In this document: positions 1,076 through 26,929 of the stretch, one piece after another
Layout: each line of letters opens with the position of its first letter
Numbering within the stretch: the stretch's first letter is position 1
Position numbers and translations under genes: made by a program
Notes under the pieces: generated by a model
Databases searched by the model: none
What the model was told of the DNA's origin: nothing
The model's input: the letters and a program-made list of their open reading frames with translations, nothing else
Assembly: GCA_022925895.1 (NCBI GenBank)
Contig: JAKSYS010000733.1
Span: forward strand, 1 to 29,420
Length of the DNA: 29,420 nucleotides
Direction of reading: 5' to 3'
Source of the DNA: Fragilaria crotonensis
Lineage: Eukaryota; Bacillariophyta; Fragilariophyceae; Fragilariales; Fragilariaceae

Positions 1076-4000
1076 ATGACCGAAGAAGCGGCGATGCTGC
1101 CACCCCCAGCATACCCCACCTTCGAGGAAGTAGAGCACTCTGTGTACGGGTTTGAGTGTGACCAGTGGGAAGAAATTCCCTATCCTCCAGATGGACCTGA
1201 TTGGTTTACAGAAAGTGAACGCAGTCGTCGAAACGAACATGCAAGTCGTTACCAAAAGTATGGAGGAACGCCGACGGGATGGTCTCGTTACTTGGAACTT
1301 GGGTACTTTGGATATGAAGATTGTAATGACTTTGAAGAAGTTTGGAAAAATTTCGATGCAAACCCCTTGGCCGTCCATAAAGCAATCTGGTATCAATTTA
1401 TGTACCATCTGGACAGAGAGGTATGAAATCCCCGAGAAACTGCAAGAGTGGGCTACAAATTATAGCCATGTTTACATGGCATATTATGAACCTGAATCGT
1501 TGCAAGTGGATACCAATGTGCCGTTGACAGAGTGGAAAGTTCTAGTTGATATGGATACTGCCATGGAAGATACAAGCATTAGCACCGAAGGGAGTTGGAT
1601 CAATGTACCAGAACGAGGCCGACGAAGAGGAAAAAGTCCACCACAGGAACCAGAGAATGAGAAACGAAACGAACCTGGGGGAAACATGGAAGCACAGCAC
1701 CATCCTAAAGAAGCGGAGACACAGAGAGGAATTCCGGCAAGGCAGGCAATTAAGGAGCTCCACAATCAACTTAAGCAATCTAAAAGATACCAAAAAACAA
1801 TGAAACCGGCCTCCAAGTTACCTCAGGTGTCAACCGTCCACGAAGAAGATGAGGATGAGGTTCTTATGGAGGATAACGACAGTAACAACAAGAGCACATC
1901 CACCACGTGGTCAGAGGCACTCCCGCGGTTGAAACCATTTCAGAATGTACCAGTGAATGATGGTACGCATCGGTTGACAGTAAGGTGGAAACCAGAAGGA
2001 GGGATCCAACAATATGAACACGATAAACAGCAACTCAACACCGCAATCCATACACTGTTGTCGTCTGTACTTGAAGACAATGATGGAATGTTGTACCGTT
2101 GGGAGAGCAAAGATCTTCAAGCGTCTGCCGTTATGTCACAACTCACAGGTATGAAGCTGCGAGATTATGTGTCCCCACATATCTCGTTTATCCAAGCAAC
2201 GTCGCAGATTATATTTGGAGTTCGAGTGGGTTTCACCGACAACCCAATGAAGTGGCAACATGCGCCAAGTAAGAAACAGCAACTAAAAGAAAACAACGTG
2301 GAAATTAAGGTATCCAATTCCAGCAGCGCGGGCGGTAAAGCTGTTATAGCAGGATACATATTGTTGAAAGCGCCCAACACAACGTCAACACATCGGTACA
2401 CTCAATTTCTACGAAGCAAGATGCCAGATGCAACACCATACTTCGACATTGAGAGATACAAGAAAACTCCATTCGGTCAAGTCATTCCCCATCTGGTTGT
2501 CCAATGCGGCGAACGGCACATAACCCCAGTGTGCCAAGCCTTGCTTCAAGTCTTGACGGGTAACGGCACGGCCACTTTCCTCCCCCGGTATGTATTCAGC
2601 GCAATGACGGACGAGCAAATTAACAACCAGTTCCAGTTTCACGAAAAATGGCTCCACTCGATTAAAGCACTACAACTATCTCCCACCATTTTCCACTTGG
2701 ACCAACAACGCATTGAATACTGCGACGATGGCAGGATCATCAAACAGTCAACACGCGAATGGGCAGGAACGCTCAGACTTCCAGACGGGTCAACCGCACT
2801 GTGCGATGTGGTCAACGGGACAAAAGAGCGACAGGCATATCTTCTAACGCCGGCACATTATTTTGACCAAGCAAAGGAGGAGTTACGGTTGTACCGGTTG
2901 CGTCTATCGCCTCCAAGCCATCGCGAAGCGAGGTTCCGCGATAGTGTTCCAGATCTCCCGGATGAGATACACATCAAAACCGCAGCAGATTCAAAAGTCT
3001 CCATGATGGACAATTTATCGATGGCTGATGTTTGGCAACACTTGCCAACGTACAAGGAAAAGGTGAACGTCCAAAGTAGTATGGCTAGTGAAAGAAAGAC
3101 AAGGAGAAAGCAGTCTCAGATATCAACTCCAAAGAACGCGTGGGTAATCCCATCGGAGGCATCGACACATCCTTCCTCAACAAGATTTGCAGAGCAACAA
3201 CAGGTACTAAACGAGGATGATTCGTTCAGTACAGAAGGACGAAATTCCCTGGGAACCGATGAATTGAGTACTGCATCTACCCAATCGCTCACATTGACAT
3301 CCGAATCCAAGTACCAAGCCAAATTGCGAGAGCTCGAAACATCTACGAAGAAAAAGCTTGATTCCCTTCACGTTGCCGGGCGAGCGGCATCAAAGCAATT
3401 GGAGTCCCTGGAAGATAAGTTCAACGCCTTCGCAACGGATACGAGCACAAAGATTGAAGCAGTGCAAAGTGAATTGAAAACGGTGGTACAACAGCTGGAG
3501 GCGTCCGTTGATACTCAACAGCACATCTCCGGAAGTTTGTCTGCCATTCAAACACACACAGCTACACAATTCGAACAAATGGGGGACCATCTCTTGACGA
3601 CCGGCGAGAATGTTAGCTCCCTGACCACCTCTATGACGGAAATCAGAGCAGAGCTTGCAAGGTTGTTCGGATTGATGGCCCAGGACATAGCATTTCGGAA
3701 TGCGTCGTCACAAGCTACGCATCTAGTTAAGCAAACAAAAGAAGCGACGAGTCTGCGATCCCGGCACACCAACAGAGACGTCTCATCAAAGCAAGACTTG
3801 GTACGAGATACACCAGCAGCTTCAATTGATCCTAACCAGGAAGTCTCTCTTAGGTCTCCGCCGCCAAAACGACTTCGAGAAGGGGTGACACTACATCACG
3901 AACAAGAAGAGGATCGAGCGACTGACGAGATGCAGATGGACGAGAACGAGGATACGTCGCCGATGGCCCTACTTGCTACAAACTCAGAAATTGGGTATGA

Positions 4001-4295
4001 CGACAACACAGAAACATCAAACGAGGAAATTGAGTATGAATGGTCCTCACAGGAGGAGGAAGAAGCATGTACGAATCTAAGTGATCGTTTCCAAGCTGCT
4101 ATAACCGATGACACAGTATCGGACAATGGCACTCCTATCTATGCGACATCCCAGACGTCAGTGACACCGCGGGCCACTAATGTCAACGTTCTTCAGTCAG
4201 TCCACAGCAGAAAATCTCCTCGTCCCACCACGCCAGCTCCCCTGGGCCCCCAATACACATCAGAAATGGGTCCAGCTGGAGCGGCAGATTCATGA
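1076..4295 (+). CDS. Retrotransposon ORF1 protein (one apparent frameshift)
   Basis: First ORF of the element. I take the ATG at 1076, the first after the leader; its frame runs to a stop at 1424-1426. The longer frame 1152-4295 takes over near 1420. Reading the GG at 1420-1421 as a single G joins the two smoothly, so I treat this as one protein of about 1,070 residues. The N-terminal ~120 residues are rich in Pro, Tyr and acidic residues. The middle is polar and charged. A long stretch encoded by about 3310-3680 has heptad-like Leu/Ile spacing and is predicted coiled coil. The tail is acidic and Ser/Thr-rich. I see no zinc knuckle or RRM. By analogy with other LINE ORF1 proteins it probably binds element RNA and oligomerises; that is inference. 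The stop overlaps the ORF2 ATG (ATGA). Another frame, 4180-4530, also looks protein-like, so the C-terminal end is uncertain. Confidence 0.75.
4292..4295 (+). promoter_or_regulatory. ATGA stop-start overlap of ORF1 and ORF2
   Basis: The ORF2 ATG (4292-4294) overlaps the ORF1 TGA (4293-4295). In the silkworm LINE SART1 a similar stop-start overlap supports translation of ORF2 by termination and reinitiation; the same mechanism is inferred here. The alternative is that ORF1 really ends in another frame, in which case the overlap is longer. Confidence 0.6.
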
Positions 4296-7200
4296 ATTGG
4301 AGGCAAGGAGAAATCATAACGGATGGAGGGAATCTACGAGAGACTCCTCTGTCACCAAGTGTAGAAGGTCAAGGAGGAGTAGATTTGCGCCCGATCAATG
4401 CGTCGCCCCGAACTGCGTTACAGAGAGCCCAAGCTCAATGGAGACGTCTTTTGTCACTTCGTCCAGACCAGCAGAGAGTCGACAACACAAACCAGAGACG
4501 CGACACAGTTCTCAGTACAGCGAATTCTAGAGAAAATAACCCGTGGGGGGACGAACGGGGCGAAAAATTAGAGAACACAACTCGGGTGTATGCAATAAAT
4601 CTTAATGGGTTACAATTGGATGCAAAAGGAGGTAAGTTTGACTCAGTGTGCCGTTCCATCAAGGAGATTCAGGCGGATGTGTTCTGTGGCCAAGAGCATA
4701 ATGTGGATACCACGCAAGCGAACGTAAGGAATATCATGTTTGACACTGCAAAACAACATTGGGAACGCAATCGACTTGTACTCGGGACATCCCCCATTTC
4801 ATTTACAACCCAGTTTAAACCGGGAGGAACAATGGTTATGACAGTGGGATCACTTACTGGTCGATTATGTAAACAAGAACGCGATAAATGGGGTCGATGG
4901 TCGAGCCAAATATACCAGGGCCACGCAGGGAGAAAAATTGCTATTATCTCCGCATACCAACCGATAGTAAAAGGAGGCACGGCAGGAAAGATAACAGTTG
5001 CAGCACAACACCTAAGCTTGTTGATGCAATCGGAAGACAACACGACAAACCCAAGGGTTGCGTTCCGGCGAGACTTATCCAGGTGGTTGACTGACTATCA
5101 GCAACAAGGCTATGAAATTTTGTTGATTGGCGACTTCAATGAGCCCTTGGGTACAGACCCAGACGGTATGAGCAAGATTGCGGGAGATCACCGACTTATG
5201 GATATAATGGCACGTCGCCATTCGTCGGAACCACCAGCAACGTATGCACGCGGATCGCGCCGTTTGGATTACGCACTGGCAAGCGCACACATCTGCAATG
5301 CCTTAGTACGAGCAGGCTATGATGCGTTCAACAATGGTATTGCAACTGATCATAGGGGATATTTTATGGATTTCAGGACGGACATTTTATTCGGGTCGGA
5401 AACTCAGACGTTAGTAACTCGCACTCGGCGTGAACTGTCGTCAAGTAATCGGAAACAAGTGACAGCATATATTCGCCGAAAACACGACTTACTTACAAAA
5501 TGCAACGCGTTCGAAAGGTTGCTCCGCCTCCAGAACCCAGGCGACCGCCATATGTTTGCGGAGCGCTTGGATCAGGACCTTCTCGATGCTAGTTTAAATG
5601 CGGAAAAGGATCTTCCAAAATTTCTCGAACCAGCGTGGTCCGTCGAACTAGCGCAAGCACGCAAGAAAAAGCTCATACTGGCAAAGCAATTAACAGCTCT
5701 GAAGACAGGCTTGAACCATCTGGCAGTTCTACAACATGATATTGAAACGCTCGACATACCCTTTGAATTACCAGGCACAATACAAACCTGTTCTAATGCC
5801 ATGCGCCTCATTAATGTTGAAATCAAAGGACTGGTGGCGACAAGCACTGAAAGACGAGACCAAGAACTAAAGCGGAAGCTCCAAACTCTAGAGCAATCCG
5901 CGGATCCGGTAGATCAAAAGACGGCAATCAGGCTGCGACGACTCAAGAAAGCAGAGGATATTAACCAATTGTTTCAAAAACTAGCGCGGGTACGGAGAAC
6001 ACAGGAACGACAAGGTGTGACAAGAGTGGAAATTCCAAGGTTGGACAGCGATGACCCCAAAACATGCACGGATTGGGTACAAGTTGACGTTCCTACTGAA
6101 ATTTTGAGACTCTTGCAAGCACGAAATCGAAACCACTTTGGACAAGCGTTTGGCACGCCTTTTACAGTCCCACCACTATCAACTGAATTGGGCTTTGATG
6201 GGGCAACGGTGCACGGAGATCAGATTCTTGACGGAACGTATGATAGTACAACATTAGACGCCAACGTGCAACTCTTGTTACGTCATATGGAAAAAGTGCA
6301 CGAAATTCACCAACATCCATCCAAACCAACTATAACGGACGCGGAATTCGAAGACAAACTCAGGGTGTGGACCGAATCTACGACGACGTCCCCATCAGGG
6401 CTTCACCTAGGTCACTATAAGGCGCTCATTGCACGGCACAGCTTCCAGACAGACGCTTCGGACGAGGAATTAACCACAGAATTTAAGCAGCAACGAGATG
6501 AACTGGACCTCAAGCAAAAGGAGCTCCGAGACTTACATCTCGGCATGCTCAATTACGCACTGGCACGTGGTTACTCATACAATCGTTGGCACACCATTGC
6601 GAATACCATTCTTTTCAAAGATTCGGACAACGTTCGCCTCCATCGCACCAGAGTGATACATATATATGAAGCGGACTTCAATCTTGCTTTGGGAGTGAAA
6701 TGGCGCGAGGCCATGCATAAAGCTGAAGACAGTAACGCCTTTAATGACGGACAATATGGGTCTCGCTCTGCTCGATGTGCACCAGATCCAGTTTTTATTG
6801 AAGAACTGCAATGCGAAATCTCTCGGGCAACTAGGAAACCAGTCATTTTAACAAACTATGATGCTACAGCATGCTACGACCGAATTGTACCAAATTTGGG
6901 TATGCTTGCTAGTCGAAAGTATGGAGTCCCGTTGGAAGTGACGAAGTCGAATGCACGAACCTTGTCCACTGCAGAATATCGGATCCGCACAGAATTGGGG
7001 TTGGCTCCTACTGGATACCGGCATCATGATTCATTCCCAATCTACGGCACCGGGCAAGGGAGTGCAAACTCCCCGGGAATATGGTGCATGCTATCTAGCG
7101 CTCTCCTAGATGGATATGATCAAGTTGCAGCCCCGGCTCAGTATACAGACTCCGAGAATACGACAGAGGTTTCCTTGGGTATGATAAGTTTTGTTGACGA

Positions 7201-10200
7201 CTGCAATGGTCAAACCAATCAATTTGCGTCCGACGGGTCGACCGCAACAGTGGAGAAACTTTTCCAACAAACTCAGCAGAATGCACAACAGTGGAGCGAC
7301 TTACTCTATGCAAGTGGGGGAGCGCTAGAACTCTCCAAATGTTCAAGCCATGTTTTGCAATGGAAATTTTCCCTTCAAGGCGCTCCGGTGTTAGTCCCGT
7401 CTCACGAGGAGTTCCAAGATGTACTTCATGTTCGTGACCGGCAAACACGAGAAACTCATAAACTTCACCTACTGTCAGTCTATGACGCCCACAAAACCCT
7501 TGGACACTATAAGGCGCCGGTAGGGAACCAACTGGAACAGTTTCGTCAGCTAAAACGGAAGAGTGACGAAGCCGTAGCGTTCTTATGGACCTGTCCCTTG
7601 TCGAAGTTAGAAGCGTGGACGTACTATTACGCTTGTTACCTCCCGAGCGTAGGGTACCCGTTGGCGTGTTCGTCGCTGACAAAGAAACACCTCGATATCG
7701 TGCAACGGAAGGCTATGTCGATCATTGTGGCACGCTGTGGTTATAACAGAAACACAAAGAAGGAAATTCTCTACGGTCCCTTGGAATTGGGTGGTGCAAA
7801 CTTTCGACATTTATATGTGCAGCAAGGAGTAGGACAGATCACAATGTTTATCCGACACTGGAGATTGAAGTCGACCGCTGGTAAACTTCTTCGAGTTGCT
7901 CTGTCGTGGTTTCAACAACAGACAGGGGTTTCGTATGCAATATTGGAGCACGTCAAACCGCCGCTTCCCCATTTGGAGTCTAAATGGATCGGTTCACTGA
8001 GACAATTCTTGGCGGAAACGGATATGTATTTACAGGTAGATGCCCCGTCAATTCCTAAGCTCCAGCGGCGGTATGATTACCACCTGATGGATGCGATTTT
8101 GGATTCAAAGAAATTTACAGATGCGGAGATAAGAAGACTCAATTACTGTCGATTATATCTAAACGCGGTCACATTGGCAGATATTACAGTCGTAAAAGGC
8201 GATTATCTGGATAAAACGAAGACGACAGGACATCCCTCATTGGTTAGCAGCAGTACACATGGCAATGTAATATATCAGGAACGACCATCCGACCGCGAAT
8301 GGGCGTTATGGAGAAAAATGTGTCAGATTCTGTGGAGCGACGCCGACGGGAAGTTGCGCGAACCACTCGGCCATTGGATATTGCCGACCCACCAACAACG
8401 ACAGCACCACCAGGCATACCTCGAACATTTAGAGCTTTGTGGCTCGGACACTATCCTGTGGGTTCGTTGCTGTCCTGGAGAGGTGTACACGAAGTGTACT
8501 CAGACGGCGAGCCCGTGGGTGTATCGCGAGACCAAGAAGACAACTCGATTATGGAAAGAACTACCGTCTCATGCCGCTCCTTGCGACGTCGAACTCATTG
8601 GACTTGACCTCTGGAATGTACGTCATCAGGCTACCACGGATTTCCCAAGGACACGTGTACAACCCGCGGCAACGTTTTCACAATTTGTGAGCGGCCTCCC
8701 TATCTGGGAAGCTGAATTACTGCAAGAAGTGGAATTGTCAGAAGACCCGTTTACGGTGAGTGAGGTCCTATCACACGGTATAAGAGCAGTAAGTGATGGT
8801 TCCGTGTGGACAGATAATCAAGGCGCCTTCGGATGGATGCTCAGTTCGGACCTAGGTGACAGAGTGGCGCGAGGAATGGGACCAGCAAGGGGCGCCAAAG
8901 TCGACTCGTATCGCGCTGAAGCATATGGAATGTTGGCCATCTTGTGCTTCCTCCGCCGATTGGCAGAATTCACCACCCAAATGGAGCCGTGGACGGGGAT
9001 TCTGGCTACGGATAGCGAAAGCCTTTTTAGAGACTCTCACAGTCAAACCACAGAAAGAGGAAAACGCGCGGCCGCTGTACGACAAACAGAAACAAGTCGC
9101 ACAACTCGACGTGAAGTGCCCGGAGTGGGATTTACTGAGTAGTATCCTCACCGAGCTTCAAAGATGGCCAGGATTGACGCTACAGCACGTGAGAGGTCAC
9201 CAAGATCGGAAAACAGGTTACAACCGCCTACCGCTATTGGCCCAACTCAATGTGGATGCCGATCTCATGGCAACGACTTATCAATGCGAACAAGGCATGT
9301 CCCGACCAGTTGTTCTCCTCACGGATACGGCAGGGGTGCATCTAGTGACCCACAATGGTAGCATGACCAAAAACTATGACGCGGTCATCCGATATCAAGC
9401 TACGCAGCCTGGCCTAGCTCAATACATCCAAAAAAAGGTATGGGTGGTCGGACAAAGTGATGGGTAACGTCAATTGGAAAGCCCATGGATCAAGTCTGCG
9501 CAGGAAGATCCAGCGGAAGACACACTATACCAAATTAGTTCACGGGATCCTTCCGACAGGGAAACAGGTACACCGGAGAGACCCAACCCGAAACAAGTGC
9601 CCTCTTTGTCACACTACCGAGGAAGACTGGAGTCACATTATCAAATGCCCGCACGAAAGTCGACGAGCATGGAGGGTCCAAGTCATTCCAACGGTGGAGG
9701 CGAAATGTAAGTCCTTGCAAACGCGTCCATTGCTGACGCGAGTGTTAAGCGACGCATTGACCGGTTGGTTCAACCACGTTAACGACGACTACACCCTCAA
9801 TTCCCAGCAATACCCAACAGAGGTCCATCAACTCATTCGGCAACAAAATGAAATCGGTTGGCACCAACTGTTTTTAGGACGGTTCAGCAATGAGTGGAGT
9901 GATGTCCAAGATATTTATTATGCACAAAAGGATGCGGAAGCAGTACACAACAAGAAAAAGAAGAAGAAAAACACGGGTCAAAGGTGGCAAGTCCACATTA
10001 TCGGGCTGTTATGGGACCAATGGTGGGCACTGTGGGAAAGTCGGAACCGAGATCTACATGGGGAGGATGCACGCTCTCGAGCACAAGCCGAGACGAGAGA
10101 GGTGCATAGGACCTTACGCGAACTATACGATTATCGAGCGAGGCTGAGTACGGAGGTACAAAACCTAATGTACGCCGATGTTACAGAGCATTTCGGTCGA

Positions 10201-10332
10201 CCCCTGTGGGTCAACAAAAATTGGATTGCAGTTCACGAGCCACTCATCAGGGCGGATTTGAAGCGAGTGGCGACGCGGATAAGAGCAGGAACAAGATCTA
10301 TCCGCCAATACTTGATTTCGCGGATGTCGTAA
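4292..10332 (+). CDS. Retrotransposon ORF2: endonuclease, reverse transcriptase, RNase H (two apparent frameshifts)
   Basis: The replicase of the element. The main frame starts at ATG 4292 and stops at 9142. Domains by residue: AP-like endonuclease about 97-362 (N103, the QE pair ending at E135, Y222, GDFN at 280-283, D326, DH at 353-354); reverse transcriptase about 700-1000 (motif A YDATACYD with Asp857, motif B GQGSANSP, motif C FVDD at 967-970); RNase H from about 1498 (DGS with Asp1502, then YRAEA and ATDSES). RNase H continues in the next frame (HVRGHQD, LNVDAD), which ends at 9467. A third frame to 10332 holds the zinc finger CPLCH...HIIKC and a basic C terminus. Dropping one T from 9024-9028 and one A from 9430-9436 restores one continuous frame with no loss of motif. 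Expected function: nick the target, prime and copy element RNA. As read, this copy would not make the full enzyme. Confidence 0.9.
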
Positions 10333-13030: not shown

Positions 13031-15090
13031 TCACGAGGCTTCAGCTATTTGTGCAATGTGCATACCAATACAAGCAGGACACATCCAGAAACCTATCATG
13101 CACTTGCAATAGGTTCTTATGCGTTTTTTGCAGCCGACTGTCTTGCAAATGTGCTGCGGGTATTTGGTTGAGAGGAACTGCCATTGCGTTCCAGTCCAAT
13201 TTCCAGCGTAGACAGGAGCCGTTTCCACGCCGCAAACAGATGCCACGGGCTCCATACTCCGCCTCGTCCTCTTTCTTGTGCCTGTATTAACAACAAACGA
13301 GAATTCCATCAACTCCTTAGCAAGTAATCGCCTGAACTCCAGTTGGCTAAGCGTATCAGATTGAGAAAAGTATGAGTGTGCGAGTCGTGCATTCACCTCG
13401 ACCACAGCAAGGATAAAGGTGAATACTCGTATCTTCCAATCCTTGGTGTTGATACTCTCCTCCAATGATATTGAGAGTGTCTGGCATTGTTATGGTCATC
13501 AACTTGGTGCCTGAACTTGAAATGGTTAAAAAGGGCTCGGTGTAAACAAAACTCACATTTTCCCGAATGCCGCTTCGACGAGTCACGCTTCGTTGCGTCA
13601 ATCCTCCATCCATCGGTCGCAGCGCTCCATACGTTGCCATCAATTTCATGACGTAGTCTTCCTCCTTCATACAGAAGACTTTAAAGTTGATGCCGTCCAA
13701 AGTGCCTGGGAGGCTGTCGGTGGTGCCGATCTCCTTCAAATCAAAATGTGAGTCGATCGCCGCGCCGTCAATATACTTCGGCCAGTAACGACGCTTTTAA
13801 TTACTGCCGATGCGTAGACACCGACAGAAGCCAACTGCACCAGTCCTTTCAGCACACAGAAACCGCTGTCCATGATCACCACTCTTCCTGAGTGGTGAAT
13901 GGACTCGGTCAATCTCATAAGCAGACCAGTCGTCTTACCGTGTTCCGAATATTTTTCGTTCGGAATTTGCGACGGTCGGTCCTTACCTTGCACGAGCTCA
14001 ATTGCAAACATTATTCCACTCAAGCCACAACAAATTGAATGATATTCATTCCCCTTTGGATGGGGTTTTCTTGGAACAAAGACCCAGCCAGGGCACGTCC
14101 ACATGTTCGTCCAGACCGACATGGACTCATCCAAACAAGAGACCCAGCTCGGACTGAAGCAAGCCTGCGTGTGTTTGTTGAAAGCATCAATAATATCATT
14201 GACAGGATGGAATGGATGTTTGAATGCAGGTGGAGGCGTTGTTGTGAGCTTTAGATGCTTCAGGATCGCCTCAAAACGTCTCCTGGACATGTAAGCATGC
14301 AGACGAAACGGGGCACCACAAAATATGTCTGGCATGTCGTTTGCCCAAAACATACGTCTTTGTACTCCCTGAGTCGTTCCCAAGAGAAACAGAATCGCCA
14401 TGAACCGCAGAAACTCATCCCATGTAAGAGGGTCAAAAGTGTTTCGTTTGTGGCTTGGAGAATGGTTGTTTTGAAGAACTCCTGCGGCAAAAAGTGAAGG
14501 AAGAAACCCAACGCGGTGTGCATTGATGGATCAGCACTTACCAAGGAAGGCTGGACATCCCTGACGCCAGCCACCCTTCTAGCATCTAAGGGTTCACTTC
14601 CCCAGGGTCGGTATATATCACCAGTGTCAGTGTCGTTTGAAGTTGGAACGTTTTGGGAGCAGGCTCATTATCGTCGTCAACTGCAAATCCCTGTGCGAAA
14701 ACTCGAGACGTCTTCATTCAAGACTGACGGGATTTCACGCTCGTCGTTCTCGTTGCCCCCAACAGCCACACTCCTGTCGTTTTCCACATCGTTCGTTGGT
14801 ATAACATCGAATAAGGATTCAATGGGTCCTTCTTGAGTGACCTTGCAAAATCGAGCGACCGCATGCAGGATTTGACCATCGTCAAAATCGTCGTGTCGCA
14901 TCGTCAAACAGACCTGCAAACGCCTGGAAACCATTCTCTCCTCCTGTCCAATGACAAGGAGGTTGTCCAGCACATCATTCTTTGATGCATTTGGATACCT
15001 TTTTGAAATGACAGCCCTTGGGTGAAGGAACTTCTTGTAGACGGTGATCTTGGCTCCGACGCCATGGCGTAACCGTTTAGTTTTCGGCAT
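13031..15090 (-). pseudogene. piggyBac transposase, about 690 codons, multiple frameshifts
   Basis: DDE-type cut-and-paste transposase of the piggyBac/PGBD family. The start is the ATG at 15090. After a basic N terminus and an acidic linker comes the catalytic domain: YMSRRRFEAIL, LDESMSVW (first Asp), PRKPHPKGNEYH, GKDRPS, MDSGFCVLKG (second Asp), then PMDGGLTQRS (probable third Asp). The C terminus (13031-13170) is Cys/His-rich (CKTVGCKKRIRTYCKC and CPACIGMH), the zinc-binding tail of this family. The reading moves between frames at about 14430 (CCC in sense), 13795-13798 (AAAA), 13528-13532 (TTTTT) and 13473 (a lone C); each fits loss of one base. The linker has two further shifts near 14689-14691 and 14651-14654. 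In the frame-corrected stretches I read I found no nonsense codon. Either a young dead copy or an intact gene with homopolymer errors. Confidence 0.88.
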
Positions 15091-15577: not shown

Positions 15578-17947
15578 TCATGACGATGGGTTTAGGATGA
15601 CAAGATTCACGTCAGCTGGCCCTTGATGGTTCGAGTCTCGATTGCGAACACGTCGCAGCATATGAACTTCATCAGTTACACTGCGGATGAATGACGGCGA
15701 ACCACACACTACAACTGCAGCCTGTTTGTTTGATTCTCGTTGTGGAGAGTATTCTTGGCAGTTGTGGACATAACCCTTCAAGACATCTGCAAGTTCTGGC
15801 CTCCTGTATTCCACCTTGATGTGATTTTGAATCACATCGTCGCCAATGGGTCCATCACTCCTCCTTGTTGATTGCTCACTCTCAGCCACAGATTCATATT
15901 GTTCGCTGCTGTGAGCACCGTTCCAGGCAGTACCAGTGATAGGTAATGCTGATCTTCTGCAGCAACAGCCATTGCCTTTATTGACCAGCCGTTTGATTCG
16001 ATGAAAGACATATAGCAGGGCTAGGGCAAATAATGGAGCAAAGAACAAGGACAAGATTGCTGGGAGCCCTCGAAAGCAGTACAGGCATATAAGAGGTTTG
16101 CAACAAGGAAGCATAAGAATGTCGCCTCTCTTGATGGTCTCCGCGTCACACGAGACACATGTGGTGGAATCACCAAAAAAGGAACATTTGCTGAAGGTTG
16201 TGCCATCCTTCTCTACCACAAGGGAGTTGCAGCAGATGGCCCGGCTTACTGCAAAGCTTAATGCGACGCTCACTATAGAGGCAACTGTTGTGGAGATGGG
16301 ATCGTAAAACGACTTTAAGTGCCCGGAAAACTTGACTTGGTAACTTCTCACAAGTTTCGTCGGTTGAAACGGTTGGCTTCCCTCAGTTGATCCTGTAACA
16401 AACACATGGCACTGTGTTGCTCCATCCCGACTACAAGGCAACAAATCTTGAGACAAAAATTCCATTTCATCCGCAGCGCGAACTAGCCAAACCAACCATG
16501 TTCGTCTGCCTGTGTCAACGCTGCGGTTGCGTATAGTCTCCGATACGCCAGTCAACCCAACACCGCCGACTAGAAAGAGGCAATTTTCGTAGCAATCCAA
16601 TGATGCGTGCAGATCAACCCCGTACGGGCCTTCGATTTCAAAGTCGAAGGTTAACGCTTGGAAATTGCTTTCAGCGCTTCTGAAGGTATTTCCATGTAGC
16701 GATTGTTGCTGGTTGGGTAGATCAGCCAGCGATGCAGGACTCGAAAAGAGAGACGCTTCGTGGACTTTGGATGCGAATGCGGAAGTCCAATCACCCAATG
16801 CTTTGATGTGCAAGCTTATTGTCTGATTTGTTGGATCAATTTTGCTTATTGATATCGGGTGAGACTGCCAAATCGAAATTGAAGGGACTTTAAGGTACAC
16901 AAACATTCCTGGCCTTGGCACTGAAGTCCATGACTTGGGGATGCTGAAAGTCAATGCGATAATCTTGGCGTCTGCTGCTGGCTGTTCCGAGGATTTATGA
17001 TTAATGCAGATTTTCAGGTCACCGTCATCAAATGTATTCGAGTTGCCGGCCGCGTGTGTTGCAGTTACTCGAGTTTGCAGTCTGGAATACTTTCGTAACA
17101 ACCGTTCGGTAATCCATGCCACTAAGGCCGGCTGGACGAAGTGAAGGGTATTGTAATCATGGAGATTGGAAAAGAAGATCAATAATGCGGTAGAGGAAAG
17201 ATGGAATCCATTGAATCCTTCATACCAGTGCCTACGAAACCACGGTTGTGACGTGGCAACCAACGCAAGCAGCATGAGAAGACCTGCCCAACCCATCGCA
17301 TTCACCACACCTTCGGTGTAGTAGCCCCGAAAAGGAAGCATCGACTCCCACCATTCTTCCCAAGATAGTCGCATTGCATATGCAGAGGAGATGAATGCGA
17401 CGTGGACTAGAAGCCAGAAAAGTATAGCGTTCCCCATCCAAATGTGCATAATAGCGGTTTCCTTGTGGGACAAAGAGCTCTGAACCTCAAGGCGTTGCAG
17501 TGGTGAAATCCTTTGCACTGGAAAGATTACAGCTGCTAAATTCCAAAGAGCAGGCCAAGCGGCTTTCGCTCCTAATATTTCAAGGACACCTACGACTGAA
17601 GGAGTTCGATGCCGATTTCGAAGGGATGGTTGTATGAGTGATGCTACGAACCATAGCAAGTTTATTACGAGGAACGTGCGCAATTTCAGTGGGCAAGAAC
17701 CCAACAACGCCTGCTGTCGCTTGAGAGTGTCAACATTAATTCTTTTGCAGCACCACGGTAGAGCGGTTGGAAGAAGAACTAGACTGCTTGTTGCGAAAAT
17801 CCAAATCCATTCTGCTGAGGTGGTGCAGGTGTTTCCGACTTCGCCAGAATGGTTTAGATACAGAATCGAACTTGAGTCGGGCCACAGTTGAAAAGCAACG
17901 GTGCCCAGAATCAAGCCAGCCCCGAAAGTAAGGCAAAGTCTAGCCAT
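15578..17947 (-). CDS. Ferric reductase, FRE/FRO type (flavocytochrome b superfamily)
   Basis: A 789-residue membrane protein starting at ATG 17947. It passes electrons from NADPH through FAD and two haems across the membrane to ferric (or cupric) iron. The haem ligands fit the family: H168 and H182, and H249 and H263 (FHLSSTALLIFFSNLH), each pair 14 residues apart on helices near 165-190 and 247-265. FAD-site motif HPISISK starts at 363. The NADPH half begins at LFLVGGVGLTG (457-467) and ends with VVVCGSP (745-751). Between these lies an insertion with two predicted membrane helices (about 553-571 and 627-648) separated by a Cys-rich loop (C588, C597, C600, C615, C616, C621, C624). Plant FRO proteins, as I recall, also carry helices in this half, so this resembles FRO more than NADPH oxidase. 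Hydrophobic N terminus; no EF-hands. It is divergent from the NikA-like gene. Substrate is inferred. Confidence 0.88.
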   Translation of the reverse strand: MARLCLTFGAGLILGTVAFQLWPDSSSILYLNHSGEVGNTCTTSAEWIWIFATSSLVLLPTALPWCCKRINVDTLKRQQALLGSCPLKLRTFLVINLLWFVASLIQPSLRNRHRTPSVVGVLEILGAKAAWPALWNLAAVIFPVQRISPLQRLEVQSSLSHKETAIMHIWMGNAILFWLLVHVAFISSAYAMRLSWEEWWESMLPFRGYYTEGVVNAMGWAGLLMLLALVATSQPWFRRHWYEGFNGFHLSSTALLIFFSNLHDYNTLHFVQPALVAWITERLLRKYSRLQTRVTATHAAGNSNTFDDGDLKICINHKSSEQPAADAKIIALTFSIPKSWTSVPRPGMFVYLKVPSISIWQSHPISISKIDPTNQTISLHIKALGDWTSAFASKVHEASLFSSPASLADLPNQQQSLHGNTFRSAESNFQALTFDFEIEGPYGVDLHASLDCYENCLFLVGGVGLTGVSETIRNRSVDTGRRTWLVWLVRAADEMEFLSQDLLPCSRDGATQCHVFVTGSTEGSQPFQPTKLVRSYQVKFSGHLKSFYDPISTTVASIVSVALSFAVSRAICCNSLVVEKDGTTFSKCSFFGDSTTCVSCDAETIKRGDILMLPCCKPLICLYCFRGLPAILSLFFAPLFALALLYVFHRIKRLVNKGNGCCCRRSALPITGTAWNGAHSSEQYESVAESEQSTRRSDGPIGDDVIQNHIKVEYRRPELADVLKGYVHNCQEYSPQRESNKQAAVVVCGSPSFIRSVTDEVHMLRRVRNRDSNHQGPADVNLVILNPSS

Positions 17948-18872
17948 CGTGTGTGGGCATTCTATCGTGAGCCGAGAAAGTTATGATACCCCCATAATTC
18001 AAGCACTCTACTAGGAAATGATACCATCAGGCCATTTTAAAACCATGTTTATATGAACATGGTAACATGGACTACCTTTTTCTTTTATGTTTGTCGCGGT
18101 ACCAGTATGCTCCTGCAGAGTCCAGAGGGTGAGGCCATATGCGTGCTATCACCTGGCTATCACCACGAATCGTGCGATGTGGGGTTATGGCCTTGGAACA
18201 AGCCCAGCGTGCTGCGTGTATGCATATGCATATTCCGAGTACTCGAGTAGTAGACTACTGGTAGTACAATACGGCTAGTACAGAATACAAGAAAGACATT
18301 TGTACACAAGTGCTACTAGTAGTACTATACTACAAGTATGTACTGCCACACTTTTGCTAGTAATCGGAATACGTAGAACGGGTTGGTCCTCCGGAGCTCC
18401 GAGCTGTATGCATATGTACTCGAGTACCAGGGACGTTTGTACTTGGAGTAACCCTGCTGATAAATCGTCGGGAAGAAAGAAGAAAGGCCATAGGGTTTGG
18501 AGTTTTTTCTAGATCTTGCTGCATGAGAGGGGGAAAGGGCCTGGACTGTGGATCCCTCACCACCGAAACATCAAAAATGTATCGATACACTCCTTTTTTC
18601 TGTACTTCCTGAGTTATTGAGTACTACTACTATGCATGTAGTACATGGGGAGGACCGGAGACGGGGGGCCACGAGGACATGTGTAGTATTCGTATGCATA
18701 AGCCTGTGTCAACTGTAAACAGAGTCAACAAAGGCCTTGGCTAAGCGTATGTTCGTTTGGCCTTCGACAAGAAAAAGATTATGCAAGATCCTGGGTTTAT
18801 ACTCTCACATTTTATCGGATTACCACCCAGTAGTGCTCACAAATTATCCTCAACCGCCCTCTATCCACCGTG
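17948..18872. promoter_or_regulatory. Shared divergent promoter region of ferric reductase and NikA-like gene
   Basis: A 925-bp gap between two divergent starts, so it should hold both promoters; core elements cannot be fixed by eye. Visible structure: hairpin CCATGTT/AACATGG (18043-18062) about 100 bp upstream of the reductase ATG, and a repeated composite motif, GTATGCATATG with the palindrome TACTCGAGTA, at 18218-18228 with 18240-18249 and at 18406-18416 with 18417-18426. A TACTAGTAGTACTATACTAC tract starts near 18314. TACTCGAGTA-like palindromes also occur elsewhere in the window, so they may be background repeats and not operators. I found no CACGTG-core site. Confidence 0.45.
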
Positions 18873-20723
18873 ATGATTATGGATACTCACCTTCGCATGG
18901 TCGGAGTGCTATTGTGCTCGATGGCATTCCTCGTCGCCCAGGTATGGGGTGCGGACGCAAACTGTGCTCATCACAATATTGACTTCATCATGATAGATGG
19001 CGATGCCAACCTGCAGGCAGTAGAGGACGATATTCGTTCTCAGCTCGCGCGAGCAGGGTTCAACGTATCTTCACGAATGCTCTCGAAAGAAGCATTCAAT
19101 GCGGCTCATCAGAATGGAGACTTTCACATGTCTTTCACGGAAACTTGGGGCGCACCCTACGACCCTCATAGCTACGCCAGTGGGTGGATTGCCGGTGATG
19201 AGGGGCATAAGCAAGCAATGGCAAATTTTGAACCGCCTGATTCTCGAGACGTGCTGTTTCAAGATATTGAGAATGTCTTGCTTGAGTCCTCACACAAAGG
19301 ACGTGAAACGCAGTGGAAGTCAATTCTCACAACACTCCACCAGCAAGCTATCATGTTACCATTGTGGGGAAAACGAATCCCCACAGTTCTCAGCAATCGC
19401 TTGACAGGATATGAAGCCGGCATGCAGCAGTTTGACTATCCTGTTCACAGACTTATTGTTCAGTCAGGTCCGACCACCGTAAGGTGTGCTCCAGGAGCCC
19501 AAACTGGCATGTTTCAGACAGTCGGTCGTCTCGACCCTCACACATACAGACCCAACGAATTCTTCGCCAACAACTGGGTTTACGAAGGCCTGGTCAAATA
19601 CGGCCCACAAGGGCAAGTTCTACCAGCGCTGGCCACGTCTTGGACAACAGAAGACAGTGCCAACGGTGGTCAGCAATACATTTTCTCTCTTCGTCCTAAT
19701 GTAACCTTTCACGACGGCACGCAATGGAATTGTCAGGCCGCGAAGCTTAACTTTGATCATGTGCTTGCGGAGCCACTCAAGTCAGTTGACTATCATGGTT
19801 GGTACGGTGTTCCCAACATGATTTCGTCTTGGACCTGTGCCAGTGATTTCGAATTTGTCGTAACTTTGAAGGAGAAGTACTATACTTTCCTGCAAGAGCT
19901 GACTTACATTCGACCACTCCGCATGCTCTCGCCTGCCTCATTTGTGGGAAGTGGCGACCCAGTGAAGGAGAACTCATGCCATGCGGGGTGGGGTGAGCTA
20001 TCCACCGAAGGTGTTTCTGTCACATGTGTTGGAATCACCAATGTTTCCGGAACTGGCCCGTTCGTATTTGCTTCGCGAACTCCTAGCTCATCGGAAGATG
20101 GCGTCGACGATGAGGTTGTATTTGTGCGCAACGAGAAATATTGGGAAGGAGTGAGTGTTATTGAGCGTCTGGTGATTGTTCGTTATGAAACGCCTGCGGA
20201 CGTCAAGGCAGCACTCCTTAATGGGTCATTAGACATGGTTTGGGGAGCAGGAGTTTTGACTGCGCAGGATCTTGTGGATCTTGAAGATGAACCAAACCTG
20301 TCAGTCTTTCACTCGGGAGATATCCAGAATACCATCCTTCTGTTGAACTCCGGAAAGCCGCCGCTTGATGACATCACGATCCGCAAAGCAATCATTCATT
20401 CCGTGAACAAGATCGACATCATTGACAACGAATTGGGAGGTTTTGAGCGTCCCGTCGATAACATTTTTCCATTGGATGCTCCTTATTGCGATCTTGATCT
20501 GACGCCGCGCTGGGACTATGATTTCGAGAAAGCCATCTTCTTGAACTGTAAGACGTCTTCGGAAGGTAGCGGCAACGGGGATCTGGCCTTGATCCTGGGC
20601 TGTGTGTTGGGAGCTATCTGCTCCGTTCTCTTGGTGGGGAGTGTGCTATGCTATATGCGATACCGATATGCTGAGCATGCACTTGAGGAACTGCGTCGAG
20701 AAGAGAAGGCTGTCTCTGCATAA
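18873..20723 (+). CDS. Membrane-anchored NikA-like (SBP_5) solute-binding protein, apparently circularly permuted
   Basis: 616 residues from the first ATG (18873). A signal peptide (about 1-27, hydrophobic core VGVLLCSMAFLVA) leads to a lumenal or extracellular domain, then one membrane helix (about 570-593) and a short charged tail. The domain matches bacterial family-5 binding proteins, closest to nickel-binding NikA, but in swapped order. Residues ~36-195 match the C-terminal NikA block (TWGAPYDPH at 91-99, LHQQAIMLPLWG). Residues ~196-560 match the N-terminal block (RLDPHTYRPNEFFANNWVYE, FLQEL and RPLR near 339-350, GTGPF, VRNEKYW, PYCDLDLTP). The total is about one NikA, not two. NikA ligand-pocket residues as I recall them seem kept: W92, Y96, W310, R347, possibly H112. 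A role in binding a metal chelate at the surface is inferred; peptides or other ligands are possible. Eukaryotic SBP_5 genes suggest bacterial transfer. No ABC permease genes are in the window. Confidence 0.85.
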   Translation: MIMDTHLRMVGVLLCSMAFLVAQVWGADANCAHHNIDFIMIDGDANLQAVEDDIRSQLARAGFNVSSRMLSKEAFNAAHQNGDFHMSFTETWGAPYDPHSYASGWIAGDEGHKQAMANFEPPDSRDVLFQDIENVLLESSHKGRETQWKSILTTLHQQAIMLPLWGKRIPTVLSNRLTGYEAGMQQFDYPVHRLIVQSGPTTVRCAPGAQTGMFQTVGRLDPHTYRPNEFFANNWVYEGLVKYGPQGQVLPALATSWTTEDSANGGQQYIFSLRPNVTFHDGTQWNCQAAKLNFDHVLAEPLKSVDYHGWYGVPNMISSWTCASDFEFVVTLKEKYYTFLQELTYIRPLRMLSPASFVGSGDPVKENSCHAGWGELSTEGVSVTCVGITNVSGTGPFVFASRTPSSSEDGVDDEVVFVRNEKYWEGVSVIERLVIVRYETPADVKAALLNGSLDMVWGAGVLTAQDLVDLEDEPNLSVFHSGDIQNTILLLNSGKPPLDDITIRKAIIHSVNKIDIIDNELGGFERPVDNIFPLDAPYCDLDLTPRWDYDFEKAIFLNCKTSSEGSGNGDLALILGCVLGAICSVLLVGSVLCYMRYRYAEHALEELRREEKAVSA

Positions 20724-21303: not shown

Positions 21304-24300
21304 TCACTCATCGATCACAATCGCTCCATCGTTCATTGCAGGCACAAAGCCATAAACAAAGCCTGCATCAAAGTCTATCGCCGCTCGATGTGATTTAAAT
21401 GCCTTAACAATCCGTTCGATTAGGGGAAGTGAGACTTTCGTAGTGTCATCTCCCCTGTTTGCGCTCTCGTAAAGTGAGTAATAAGCGCAGATGTAAGATC
21501 TTGCTCGCCTTGAAAGTTTGCGGATCGTCTCGGTTGTGAGAACTTCCCTGTTTGTTACATCGTTGACTAACTTCTTGAATGTTTCTTTGCTTTTTTTAGA
21601 GATCAATGGCTTTCGTCTGTACATTCCCTTCGCAATACCCCAACTGTATTCAACTCCCTCGCCAGCCAATTCAGCATGAAATTTCGGCGTGATGATGACT
21701 GAGACACCCAATTGTTGGCCAACGTGCTGCAACGCAGTCAGTTCTTCCGCAAAGTCGAGGCAACTGGCCATGAGACACTTTAAGCTCCAATCCTCGGCAC
21801 CCTCTAATACTTCGCCATCGCCATCGGTGGCAACATCTATTGTATACTTGTCAAGCTGTGCCTCATCTATCCATCCCCTTTCCCAAAGAACTTGTAAGAG
21901 ACCTTTTGGTCGACCCTCCCAACCTTTCTTTTCTCTTGATCTCACCTTTTTTGTTTCAATGTTGTTGTTTTTTGCAAGCTCTTGCAATTCAGTCAGACGA
22001 TAGTTGCGGCGATCACTCAGGATACCAATTGGACCAAGCTCTGCTTTTAGTTCACTTATTGTTTTGTTTTGCATCCGAGAAGCACCAGGAGGAGAAGGAA
22101 GGATTCGGTCGTGGCGATTAACCTCTCGCTCTGCTTCGCTCATCCAAAAAGGCCCGTCGTCGGTCGGTAGAAAGATAAAACTCTGGATGTCGCCAACATT
22201 TAAGGTACGTCGATGCATCCCGAGATAGCCATCATGATCCTTTATAATTGACTCACGCATCTGAGGTTGCACTCCACCATAGCCCTTGTTCATGCTATAG
22301 GCGTCTAATCCATTCGAGAGCTTTTTGGCATGCCCTTGTGAATGGTCAAAAGGAAGGAGAAATCGAAATGAGGATAGACAACTTTGAGACTATCGACACA
22401 ATCTTCAAATTGGATGGACATGTGATTATATGTCCAATAGCCTTCGTTGTTTGCTCGAGCTCAAAATTGATAACAAAGGTGAGTCTTTGAGGTCTTTCTT
22501 TGTTGCTTGTCCGTGGATTGCCATCGCGGCATCCACATCAACGTACGTCTTGCCACGTCGCGATTCATTGATCTCATCAAGTTGCATCCTACTCAGGTTT
22601 AGCCCAAACCCGGTTTCTCGCGATTGAAACGCTGATAACATCAAACTCAAACCGTCCGTCTTTGGAAGAAGCGCACGCTGTCCTTCAGGTCCAACCCATT
22701 GTCGATTGCCGAGTAGAAACTGATTGAAAACACTCTCGTCTTGCCCAAATATCATGAGCGGTTTCGATGGCGATTCTGGCTTTCTGACACTCAAGTTTCC
22801 TCCCATCAAACCGTACCCCATTTCGTTTGCAACATTGTGAAGAAAGCTGTGATCGTCGACATGAAATTCTACCATTTGAATGTTGTCGTCGGAAAGGTAC
22901 GAGTATCCCTTTGCATTGTGGTTAAATTCTGAAGGCTTTTTCTCACGTTTCCAGTTCTCTGCAGTTTCTCTTGTCACCTGGATCCACCGATGGCATCGCG
23001 GCTCCAATTTAGAAAGATAATCCTTGCAAAACTGATTCCTGTGGAACACAACATTTGGGCGTTCGTGCCCGTCAACGAAGAACGTTTTCTTTCGTGCGTC
23101 GTATGAGAATCCGAGGCGACGTAGCCAGCGCCAGGTCGTAGATAACGAGATCGGTGACTCTAAATAAACACTCAGTAGACAGTCTGCTTTAGTTCTTTGT
23201 AATCTGTTGTTCTTGTCGTTGTCTGTCTCGTCGTCTTCATTGTCTTCCACGTTCTGCTTATATTCTTCGTTGGTGCCTCCTCGCTCCTCGTCGTTAGTCA
23301 CGACGATGCCATTGTTCGCCTCCGTTGCGCGTGGAAGAATTTTCGATATCAACTCGTTTCGTGCCAACTCAATTGTGAGATCGGCAAGGTTCTCAATGCA
23401 GTACTGATGCCATGGAACTGTAACCTCCTCCTGGAAGTAAGCAAGTAGATCTGGAAGCGGTTTCTTCTGCTTGTGAATCTTCGGGTTTGGATGTGGAAAG
23501 CGCTCGCGATTGGCTCTCAAGAGAATGTTCCATCCTGCGACTGTCCTTTCGTTTGTACCCGCAGCTTCAATTCCCATCTTGCTGCTTTCAAAGATGGCTT
23601 TTGCACAACAATCTTCAACCCATCGTGCGGAATTCATCTCCTCGAGTGCGAAAGTGTAGGCTAAGCAAATAATAGAACATCTCTGTCTACAGATGAAAAT
23701 ATCATACGGAGAACAGAGATTGTCCTTATCATGCTTATCTACAAGATCTCTCCATCCGTCCATAGTTCGGTTGACTTGCTGTAGCCGCTCAATCCGTTCC
23801 TCCAGGACTTCAACAACATCGCGGGCATCACTTGAATTACCAAGGAACAGTTTCTTTGCTTCCGGACTGTCCCAATACGTCTCGACTACAATCTTTGCTG
23901 ATGCAGGGCCATGTCTAGGTTTCTTTGCTTTGTCCTCTGCTTCAACTCGCGCTCGAGCTTTCCGTTTTGCAGTTGATTGCTCCGCAATTTCGTTCGTCAA
24001 ATCGACGACTTCTGGAACACCGCGAGCAACACTGTAATGGTCATTAATTGTTGAATCTTTCAACAACGATATGAAACTCTTCTTTCCACCATCTGGCGGG
24101 CGTTGCACCAACCCTCCTGGGGTTGTTATGTAGTATCCCCAAATATTCCGTTTTGGATTGCCGAAGGATCCTGACCGAAACTACAACGTCGGAATCGACC
24201 AGTTTGGTTAGAATCCGTGAAATCATCAAGTACCACGCCACCACACGATGAAATTGCTTTGTTCAGCATACCCCTATTGAAACCAAGGGTCTCAAGAGTT

Positions 24301-24689: not shown

Positions 24690-25271
24690 GGATTGAGTTT
24701 CGCTGTGTGGAATTTGGATCAACCGTGTGCACTCGAACCGCCGCATTGGAGCTACTACCTGGTAGTATGTATGTAGTTCTGTAGTAAAGCGGCGGCCTCG
24801 CGAACTCTCTCAGTCATGCATGGCAAGCCCCAGAACTGAATCGACTTTCTTAGCTCGTACAGGTGCAGTACAATGTAGTAGTACAAACTTGTTCGATACC
24901 CCAACGAATGCAGGACTGAGAATTCCTGCCAGTACCAGGTACTTGTACATTGTACATGTACTTGTAGCCTACTTGTAGCACTGAATTCTGATTGGTAAGC
25001 ATACATGCATACTCGTACACAATATATTGCATATCATTGCAGCTGCTCAGTACGTTAGAGCTGGTACTGGTATCTTCCTTCCAGAACTCAAAACATCAAG
25101 AAACTTGGTAACCTGATTTCCTGCTGTCGTGTAACCTTTTTCCAAACTTATGGTCGACTGTGAATCCACAAGCAGCGACAATAATCACTGACATTTCTTT
25201 GCAGTTTCATCGTTCTCTCTTCTTCACTTCGTCCTCTGCATCCTCTGCACATCAACCATCAACAATTGATC
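24690..25271. promoter_or_regulatory. Upstream region of NAPRT, rich in GTAC palindromes
   Basis: Non-coding DNA between the transposon and the NAPRT start. 24930-24970 is a nested palindrome of GTACTTGTAC, ATTGTACAT and GTACTTG blocks. The last ~90 bases before the ATG are pyrimidine-rich (TTCTCTCTTCTTCAC, CCTCTGCATCCTCTGC) then CATCAACAATTGATC, which would suit an initiator and 5' leader, but no core element can be assigned with confidence. Confidence 0.45.
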
Positions 25272-26929
25272 ATGCCCACTCTTGAAAAACCGTTGAATAC
25301 GTTGGTAACCCCGTTGTTGACTGATTTGTATCAATTAACCATGACGTACGCTCACTGGAAGAATGGTCGAGTGGACGACCCGGCGACCTTTGAGCTTTTC
25401 TTTCGCAAGAATCCTTTTGGAGGAGAATTCACCATCTTCTGTGGACTCGACGAAGTGCTCAAATTCATCGACAATTACAAATTCTCTGAAGAGGATATTG
25501 ATTACTTGAAGAAAACGCCTTCGCTCAATCACTGCGATCCTGGCTTCTGGGACTTTCTTCGCAACATTGATTGTTCGGGCATCACAATCCATGCCATGAA
25601 GGAGGGGACTCTGGCCTTTCCACGCATTCCTCTCATTGTCGTGGAGGGACCCCTGGGCATCACACAGCTGCTAGAAACTACCTTGCTCACACTGGTCAAC
25701 TATCCCTCCCTCCTTGCAACGAACGCCGCACGCATGGTGGTGGCATCGAAAGAAGAGAATGCGTACTATACCAAAAGGAACATCAAGGGAGAAGGAGAAT
25801 CCAGGAAACCAAGGTGCGTCGAATTTGGGCTCCGACGCGCACAGGGACCCGATGGAGGGTTCAGTGCATCCAAGTATTCGGCGATTGGTGGTTTCGTTGG
25901 AACTTCCAACGTGCAGGCAGGCAAATTGGTCGGTCTCAGCATTGTGGGGACGCACGCCCATTCCTTTGTACAAGCATATGGGACTCTAGAGGAAGTCAGC
26001 AATTTGACGTTGATGGATAAGAATGAGGGGGATGAGAAACTTCTTTTGCCATTGGTACTAAAGTATCGTGAAGAGTACGGTGATCGGTACTTGACGACGA
26101 ATGATGGTGAATTGGCCGCTTTCATCGCATACGCCAGCGCCTTTCCCGATACCTTCCTTTGTCTTATCGATACGTATGACACGCTGGCGTCGGGTCTGCT
26201 CAACTTTTGCCTCGTGTCGCTCGTTCTAGATGATTTGGGATACACGCCCGTGGCATTCGCCTTGACTCGGGAGATTTGGCATACCTCAGTCTCACGTGCG
26301 CCGACAAGTTTAATGAATTCGACCGCACTTTCTTTGCCACGCTCGACATTGTTGCTTCCAACGACATTAATGAAGAAGTCTTGCATGCCCTCAACAAACA
26401 AGGACATGCAATTACCGTCTTTGGAATTGGCACAAACCTTGTCACCTGCCAAGCTCAACCGGCGCTTGGCTGTGTCTTCAAGTTGGTTGAGATTGATGGA
26501 AGGCCTCGCATGAAGTTGTCACAGGATATTGAAAAGGTTTTAATTCCGGGAAAGAAGAAACCCTACCGCTTGTATGGTGTTGACGGCTGGCCGTTGTTGG
26601 ACCTGTTGGTGCGCTCCGAAGAGGAGATCCCACAGGTCGGCCAGCGTCTAATGTGTCGCCATCCCTTTGTCGAACGAAAGCGCGCCGTCGTCACTCCGAA
26701 AAAGGTGGAAGCGCTTCACCATGTATTCTATCAAAATGGTAGGCCAACCATGGATTTTCCGACTCTGGAGGAAACAACAGCCTACGTACAAGAGCAGTTA
26801 TCCCACCTCCGATCCGATATCCTGCGTCCCATCAATCCTACACCCTACAAGGTATCTGTGTCGCAAGACTTATTCACCTTTTTGCATGATTTGTGGCAAG
26901 CAGAATCGCCAGTGGCGGAAATCTATTGA
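25272..26929 (+). CDS. NAPRT: Nicotinate phosphoribosyltransferase (one apparent frameshift)
   Basis: Converts nicotinate and PRPP (with ATP) to nicotinate mononucleotide, the first step of the Preiss-Handler NAD salvage route, in the cytosol. I use the ATG at 25272. N-terminal TDLYQLTM (about 18-25) and FELFFRKNPFGGEF, EFGLRRAQGPDGG (from 184), GTHAHSF and LIDTYDT (about 298) are family motifs. The first frame then diverges, and the conserved SGDLAY region is read only in another frame that runs to 26929. Adding one G to the GG at 26252-26253 joins them (PVGIRLDSGDLAY). The joined length, about 552 residues, is close to human NAPRT (about 538). The C-terminal half keeps a normal sequence with no stop codons, so a sequencing error in an intact gene is more likely than a pseudogene. 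Continuous homology across the join argues against an intron. Convergent with the DDX56 gene. Confidence 0.93.

Follow-up and report, generated by a model that had tools for sequence, protein, structure and literature searches.

Bacterial NikA passes metal complexes to ABC permeases. A diatom relative, ZCRP-B, is about 30% (30.5%) identical to E. coli NikA, is found at the plasma membrane, is more abundant at low zinc or cobalt, and has been proposed to capture metal at the surface for ZIP transporters or endocytosis (Kellogg et al. 2022; excerpts of PMC9010474). Receptors like it have been put forward as one means by which marine diatoms may hold their own in the competition for zinc and cobalt at picomolar levels; the excerpted main text of PMC9010474 mentions neither "permut" nor "reductase". 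In Phaeodactylum tricornutum, FRE2 and FBP1 are encoded by divergent genes ~1.5 kb apart, and both are needed for siderophore use (excerpts of PMC6876252). The phytotransferrin ISIP2a is surface-anchored, with one membrane helix, binds Fe(III), and works through endocytosis (excerpts of PMC9010474). Finally, under iron limitation no protein of T. pseudonana was down-regulated more strongly than one annotated as NikA (-2.87 fold; excerpts of PMC3797725), which argues against an iron role in that homologue at least.

Here we describe a locus of the diatom Fragilaria crotonensis on contig JAKSYS010000733.1 of a 62.1-Mb assembly; the contig, 29,420 bp long, was analysed whole and is called the window below. 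It encodes P0001, a NikA homologue that fits the ZCRP-B kind, with one helix and an outside body as judged by hydropathy only, and P0002, a protein of the ferric reductase family. P0001 and ZCRP-B are both NikA-like diatom proteins, mostly extracellular, with one membrane helix and without a NikB/NikC partner seen, but the membrane domain of ZCRP-B is described as lying near the N-terminus (excerpts of PMC9010474), and the predicted one of P0001 is near the C-terminus. P0001 also has His416 and Arg97 of NikA changed. With FBP1/FRE2, the locus shares a divergent reductase gene and, by prediction, a surface receptor of bacterial origin; FBP1 resembles the FhuD/DesE siderophore receptors, whereas P0001 is NikA-type. 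ISIP2a, too, is a metal receptor anchored at the surface and has a single membrane helix, but it binds Fe(III), and no sequence similarity between it and ZCRP-B is reported in the excerpts of PMC9010474. E. coli NikA and S. aureus CntA are of the same fold class as P0001 and are its best matches; unlike them, P0001 is permuted, C-terminally anchored, and eukaryotic, with changes at His416 and Arg97 and no match to an ABC permease in its genome.

A divergent reductase and receptor gene pair

The reductase gene (15578-17947, minus strand) and the NikA-type gene (18873-20723, plus strand) are both uninterrupted open frames, and their start codons face apart with 925 bp between them (17948-18872), the divergent arrangement that an earlier note on this DNA had described. 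That note compared the pair with FBP1/FRE2, and the layouts are indeed similar, with 925 bp here against ~1.5 kb there (excerpts of PMC6876252). The gap may act as one shared promoter region for both genes. In a search of the assembly that skipped simple repeats, bases 17960-18860 of the gap matched only themselves. A promoter motif common to the gap and to 1278 bp that run from upstream into the paralogous receptor gene was also considered; the longest common word was 12 bases (one case), with four at 11, and the motif was rejected because these lengths are about what we estimate for chance.

P0002 (789 aa) carries three Pfam domains over cut-off, all on the minus strand: Ferric_reduct (aa 131-258, 17174-17557, 7.1e-12), FAD_binding_8 (aa 327-444, 16616-16969, 6.8e-13), and NAD_binding_6, found in two stretches, the best of them at aa 682-759 (15671-15904, 2.8e-9). 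Paired HX13H histidines bind haem, and two such pairs, H168/H182 and H249/H263, are present. The three domains and two histidine pairs place P0002 in the ferric reductase/NADPH oxidase superfamily, so that the FRE-type identity read earlier from the letters is upheld. At window 16001-16300, hydrophobic stretches (aa 550-568 and 619-649) lie around a 9-cysteine loop (aa 572-624), and loop and stretches together precede the final portion of the NADPH-binding domain.

P0001 (616 aa) matches SBP_bac_5 (PF00496) at 157.7 bits against a gathering score of 32.4 (E 5.8e-46). Its best relative of solved structure by phmmer is E. coli NikA (6.1e-59, three stretches), all of its best matches are NikA or CntA, and blastp gives 34.1% and 27.7% identity with E. 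coli NikA for its two parts. On the NikA equivalog TIGR02294, which has a cut-off of 393 bits, P0001 scored 294.6 and its paralogue P0003 308.1, both below the cut-off and in split stretches. These matches agree with the earlier description of a NikA-type rather than an FBP1-type receptor; PF01497, which we take to be the Pfam family of the FhuD/DesE-type fold and which may cover FBP1, had no match in this genome. By hydropathy only, a stretch at aa 7-25 (18891-18947, plus strand; value 1.82) reads as a signal peptide, and a stronger one at aa 571-589 (20583-20639, plus strand; 2.68) as a C-terminal membrane helix, in keeping with the membrane-anchored bacterial-type binding protein that had been proposed. 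We infer that P0001 lies at the cell surface with its body outside. It has five N-glycosylation sequons and shares seven cysteines with P0003 (P0001 positions 31, 287, 322, 369, 385, 539, and 559); in seven bacterial NikA proteins, the part beyond the first 25 residues contains 0 to 2 cysteines.

Several transposable-element proteins are encoded in the window around the pair. Plus-strand frames at 1134-10332, one of them carrying Exo_endo_phos together with a weak, below-cut-off hit to RVT_1, read to us as a LINE-like retroelement, and a DDE_Tnp_1_7 transposase frame (9.5e-44) occupies 13736-14530 on the minus strand. Two long minus-strand frames of 361 and 584 aa (21304-24180) had no family match over cut-off. 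At 25185-26929, a nicotinate phosphoribosyltransferase is split over two overlapping plus-strand frames, by either an intron or a frameshift.

Circular permutation of the NikA-type receptor

Phmmer paired P0001 with E. coli NikA in three stretches: P0001 36-164 with NikA 342-467, 215-358 with 12-148, and 387-557 with 155-318, leaving ~23 NikA residues (319-341) without a match. As aligned, P0001 is a circular permutation of NikA, with the last third placed first and the old ends joined. On the plus strand, the segment placed first (aa 36-164) spans 18978-19364, the stretch in which the two old termini are joined (aa 165-214, between the phmmer stretches) 19365-19514, and the segments matching NikA 12-148 and 155-318 (aa 215-557) 19515-20543. 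The hydrophobic signal-like stretch and the transmembrane helix are placed at the new chain ends. Since C31 and C559 flank the point at which NikA has been opened, a disulfide between them, joining the new ends, is likely. The numbering in the earlier note already had W92 and Y96 ahead of W310 and R347, opposite to NikA, and passed over this without comment.

Blastp against bacterial NikA placed the C-terminal segment first in 7/7 comparisons for P0001 and 7/7 for its paralogue. For a rotation test, the ectodomain was shifted by 20-residue steps, and P0001 and the paralogue were each scored by local alignment against the seven bacterial NikA proteins. The best offset was 160 or 180 in all 14 comparisons, with a rise of 86-185 points, and none of six bacterial control pairs gained score. 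We also examined the best 80 of 553 prokaryote stretches encoding relatives, 29 of which scored for both parts and 51 for the N-terminal part only. All 29 had the normal, unpermuted order, so that no permuted prokaryote form was seen among the both-part loci from these best 80. In the literature, too, the titles and abstract starts among the matches listed showed no binding protein permuted in this way. The permutation is a structural fact that can be checked; it would bring both chain ends to one site, and a bacterial binding protein can then hang from a C-terminal anchor.

Structure models were built with AlphaFold2, in both cases from shallow alignments. The first, of the whole protein, was poor (mean pLDDT 45.7, pTM 0.43) and was dropped; the second, of the ectodomain, reached a mean pLDDT of 53.9 and a pTM of 0.49. 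Nine fragment alignments were made for modelling; seven misplaced one part and went unused, and two were right in the inspected columns, short stray ends aside. In the ectodomain model, only residues 185-455 (protein 211-481) match NikA/CntA well, with Z 25.0 over 230 residues at 2.6 A against CntA 5yhe_B and Z 24.4 over 235 residues at 3.5 A against NikA 1uiv_A. The first-placed segment was modelled at low confidence, and the pocket correspondence given below is therefore read from sequence alignment; likewise, the permuted fold is supported by sequence rather than by the model.

The sequences make an origin of the diatom receptors within the NikA/CntA kind clear. A tree of 38 rows groups the two diatom proteins at 100/100, and their stem, 1.52 changes per column long, sits at an unresolved fork with a Bacillota NikA group and a group of CntA-like and proteobacterial NikA proteins (group names ours). 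No donor was named. A search of a collection of genome contigs returned 276 stretches matching weak peptide patterns, none of them a relative, and a search of viral contigs with two alignments as queries found no relatives of the receptor.

The binding pocket and a more NikA-like paralogue

In the structure of NikA with Ni-AMA, the pocket residues surround the complex; His416 is the axial metal ligand, and Arg97 and Ser415 make bonds to a carboxylate (excerpts of PMC11091072). According to the title of PDB entry 3qim, E. coli cannot take up nickel without His416. In mature E. coli NikA numbering, our alignment agrees with the four counterparts named in the earlier note, Trp100 = W310, Arg137 = R347, Trp398 = W92, and Tyr402 = Y96, and adds Tyr22 = Y225 to the residues kept. 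Six positions are changed: Thr23 to R226, Met27 to F230, Arg97 to Y307, Tyr382 to N76, Ser415 to D109, and His416 to E110 (19200-19202, plus strand). By alignment, then, the metal-contacting residue of NikA is gone from P0001. The NikA-like pocket that had been proposed stands for its four named residues and falls short at His416 and Arg97; because these two are lost, the pocket is only partly that of NikA, and metal binding by P0001 is itself putative.

A profile search of the genome with SBP_bac_5 gave four matches in two genes, those of P0001 and the paralogue P0003. P0003 is an open frame of 624 aa on contig C276 (49086-50960). It is 44% identical to P0001, is permuted alike, carries a hydrophobic helix at its C-terminal end, and closes with the identical four residues. 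No ATG precedes its hydrophobic N-terminus, so another start codon or a 5' intron may be involved. Within the surrounding 9.9 kb lie minus-strand frames that we read as a retroelement and an ankyrin-repeat frame; two of the retroelement-like frames were tested and gave no Pfam match.

P0003 keeps Arg97 (R300), Ser415 (S106), and His416 (H107). Taking Arg97, Trp100, Arg137, Trp398, Tyr402, and His416 as a set, P0001 has four of the six and P0003 all six, as do six of the seven bacterial NikA proteins. The seventh, a Priestia protein annotated nikA, has two, being without Arg97, Trp398, Tyr402, and His416, so the loss of His416 and Arg97 is not unique to P0001. As judged from these residues, P0003 is more NikA-like than P0001, and the changed His416 and Arg97 suggest that P0001 does not do exactly what P0003 does. 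The paralogues thus differ both in the metal-ligand histidine, which P0003 alone has kept, and in the reductase neighbour, which P0001 alone has, and this makes specificity directly testable.

Proposed metal capture and a possible role of the reductase

A search for PF00528, the ABC permease family of NikABCDE-type partners, gave no match in this genome at E 0.001, while all 14 control genomes gave matches; the search was made exon by exon on an assembly that may be gapped, so this absence is not final. It points to a non-ABC route. A literature search on nickel ABC transporters of diatoms found no paper. The most likely use of P0001 is therefore as a tethered receptor that would concentrate metal complexes at the membrane, by analogy with the proposal for ZCRP-B. 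Because ZCRP-B responds to zinc and cobalt scarcity, zinc or cobalt would be at least as likely a substrate of P0001 as iron or nickel.

Our preferred reading, to which we give a probability of about 0.42, is an anchored metal-complex receptor, ZCRP-B-like, that works with the divergent reductase in a non-ABC route. A bacterial NikA-type protein would have been permuted and would have gained a signal peptide and a C-terminal anchor to become a diatom surface receptor. At the plasma membrane it would capture metal, as the ion or as a chelate, and hand it on without an ABC importer. The divergent reductase would most likely reduce the captured metal, Fe(III), Cu(II), or Co(III), which would then leave its ligand and enter by ordinary transporters. 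P0001 would presumably bind such a ligand and be co-expressed with the reductase. The partnership is plausible from the position of the genes, on which the coupling is based, and from the analogy with FBP1/FRE2; that receptor and reductase form a functional pair we put at roughly two in five. The earlier interpretation, capture of a metal chelate followed by reduction at the membrane, is partly supported: it was right in layout, family, and four residues, left the pocket incomplete, and missed both the permutation and ZCRP-B, and the reductase partnership it proposed would be a candidate one. Counted against our preferred reading are the paralogue on contig C276 without a reductase, the zinc/cobalt response of ZCRP-B, the fall of the T. 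pseudonana NikA under iron limitation, and the loss of His416 and Arg97 in P0001.

Uptake of zinc and nickel involves no reduction, and a reductase step brings their complexes nothing. It is quite possible that P0001 is a ZCRP-B-like receptor for zinc, cobalt, or nickel that hands its cargo to ZIP-type transporters or endocytosis and that the reductase is a neighbour by chance. The ZCRP-B data favour this (excerpts of PMC9010474), as do the several transposable-element proteins of the window and the paralogue's contig, on which none of the genome's nine FAD_binding_8 places lies, so that one of the two SBP_bac_5 genes found has a reductase neighbour. Against it, a divergent reductase so close is improbable under uniform placement, with a chance of ~1.4-4.3 in 10,000 that one of the nine FAD_binding_8 places in 62.1 Mb starts divergently within 1-3 kb upstream of either SBP gene, a rough figure calculated after the pair was seen, when other neighbours would have drawn notice too. 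The changes at His416 and Arg97 also suggest a task not exactly that of the NikA-like paralogue.

Should the reductase act with the receptor, as in our preferred reading, diatoms would have reached reduction-coupled capture twice, from two bacterial receptor types. A stronger version, which we regard as somewhat unlikely, is that the pair is a second, independently assembled diatom receptor-reductase module, in which a permuted NikA-type receptor with Glu for the metal-ligand His would be paired with its own reductase, so that a redox-active metal such as Fe(III), Co(III), or Cu(II) is freed from its organic ligand, and the unpaired paralogue would keep the ancestral Zn/Co/Ni pocket.

Drift of P0001 to another SBP_bac_5 ligand (a peptide, opine, or amino-acid derivative), with metal handling lost, appears improbable: PDB titles do show peptides, opines, and further small molecules among the ligands of this family, and Arg97, Ser415, and His416 are changed, but the best matches are all NikA or CntA, and Trp100, Arg137, Trp398, and Tyr402 are kept. 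That the segment order or the gene pair arose by misassembly, or that the gene is decayed, is scarcely credible, even on a short contig rich in transposable elements, because the 44%-identical paralogue, open over 624 aa on another contig, is permuted alike, and both frames are uninterrupted.

Other families were also noted in the genome. PF02492 (CobW family), to which ZCRP-A, described in the literature as a companion to ZCRP-B, belongs, has 10 matches, and Fea1 (PF07692), which we take to be the family of phytotransferrin, has three over cut-off, on contigs C54 and C108. The silicon-transporter family PF03842, which marks the genome as that of a diatom, has 19 matches (best 4.0e-193), and one of 14 control genomes gave a match, below cut-off. 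Three of the silicon-transporter matches fall in one 1456-aa open frame (contig C97, 29749-33762) and two in a 1008-aa frame (contig C771, 21664-24330).
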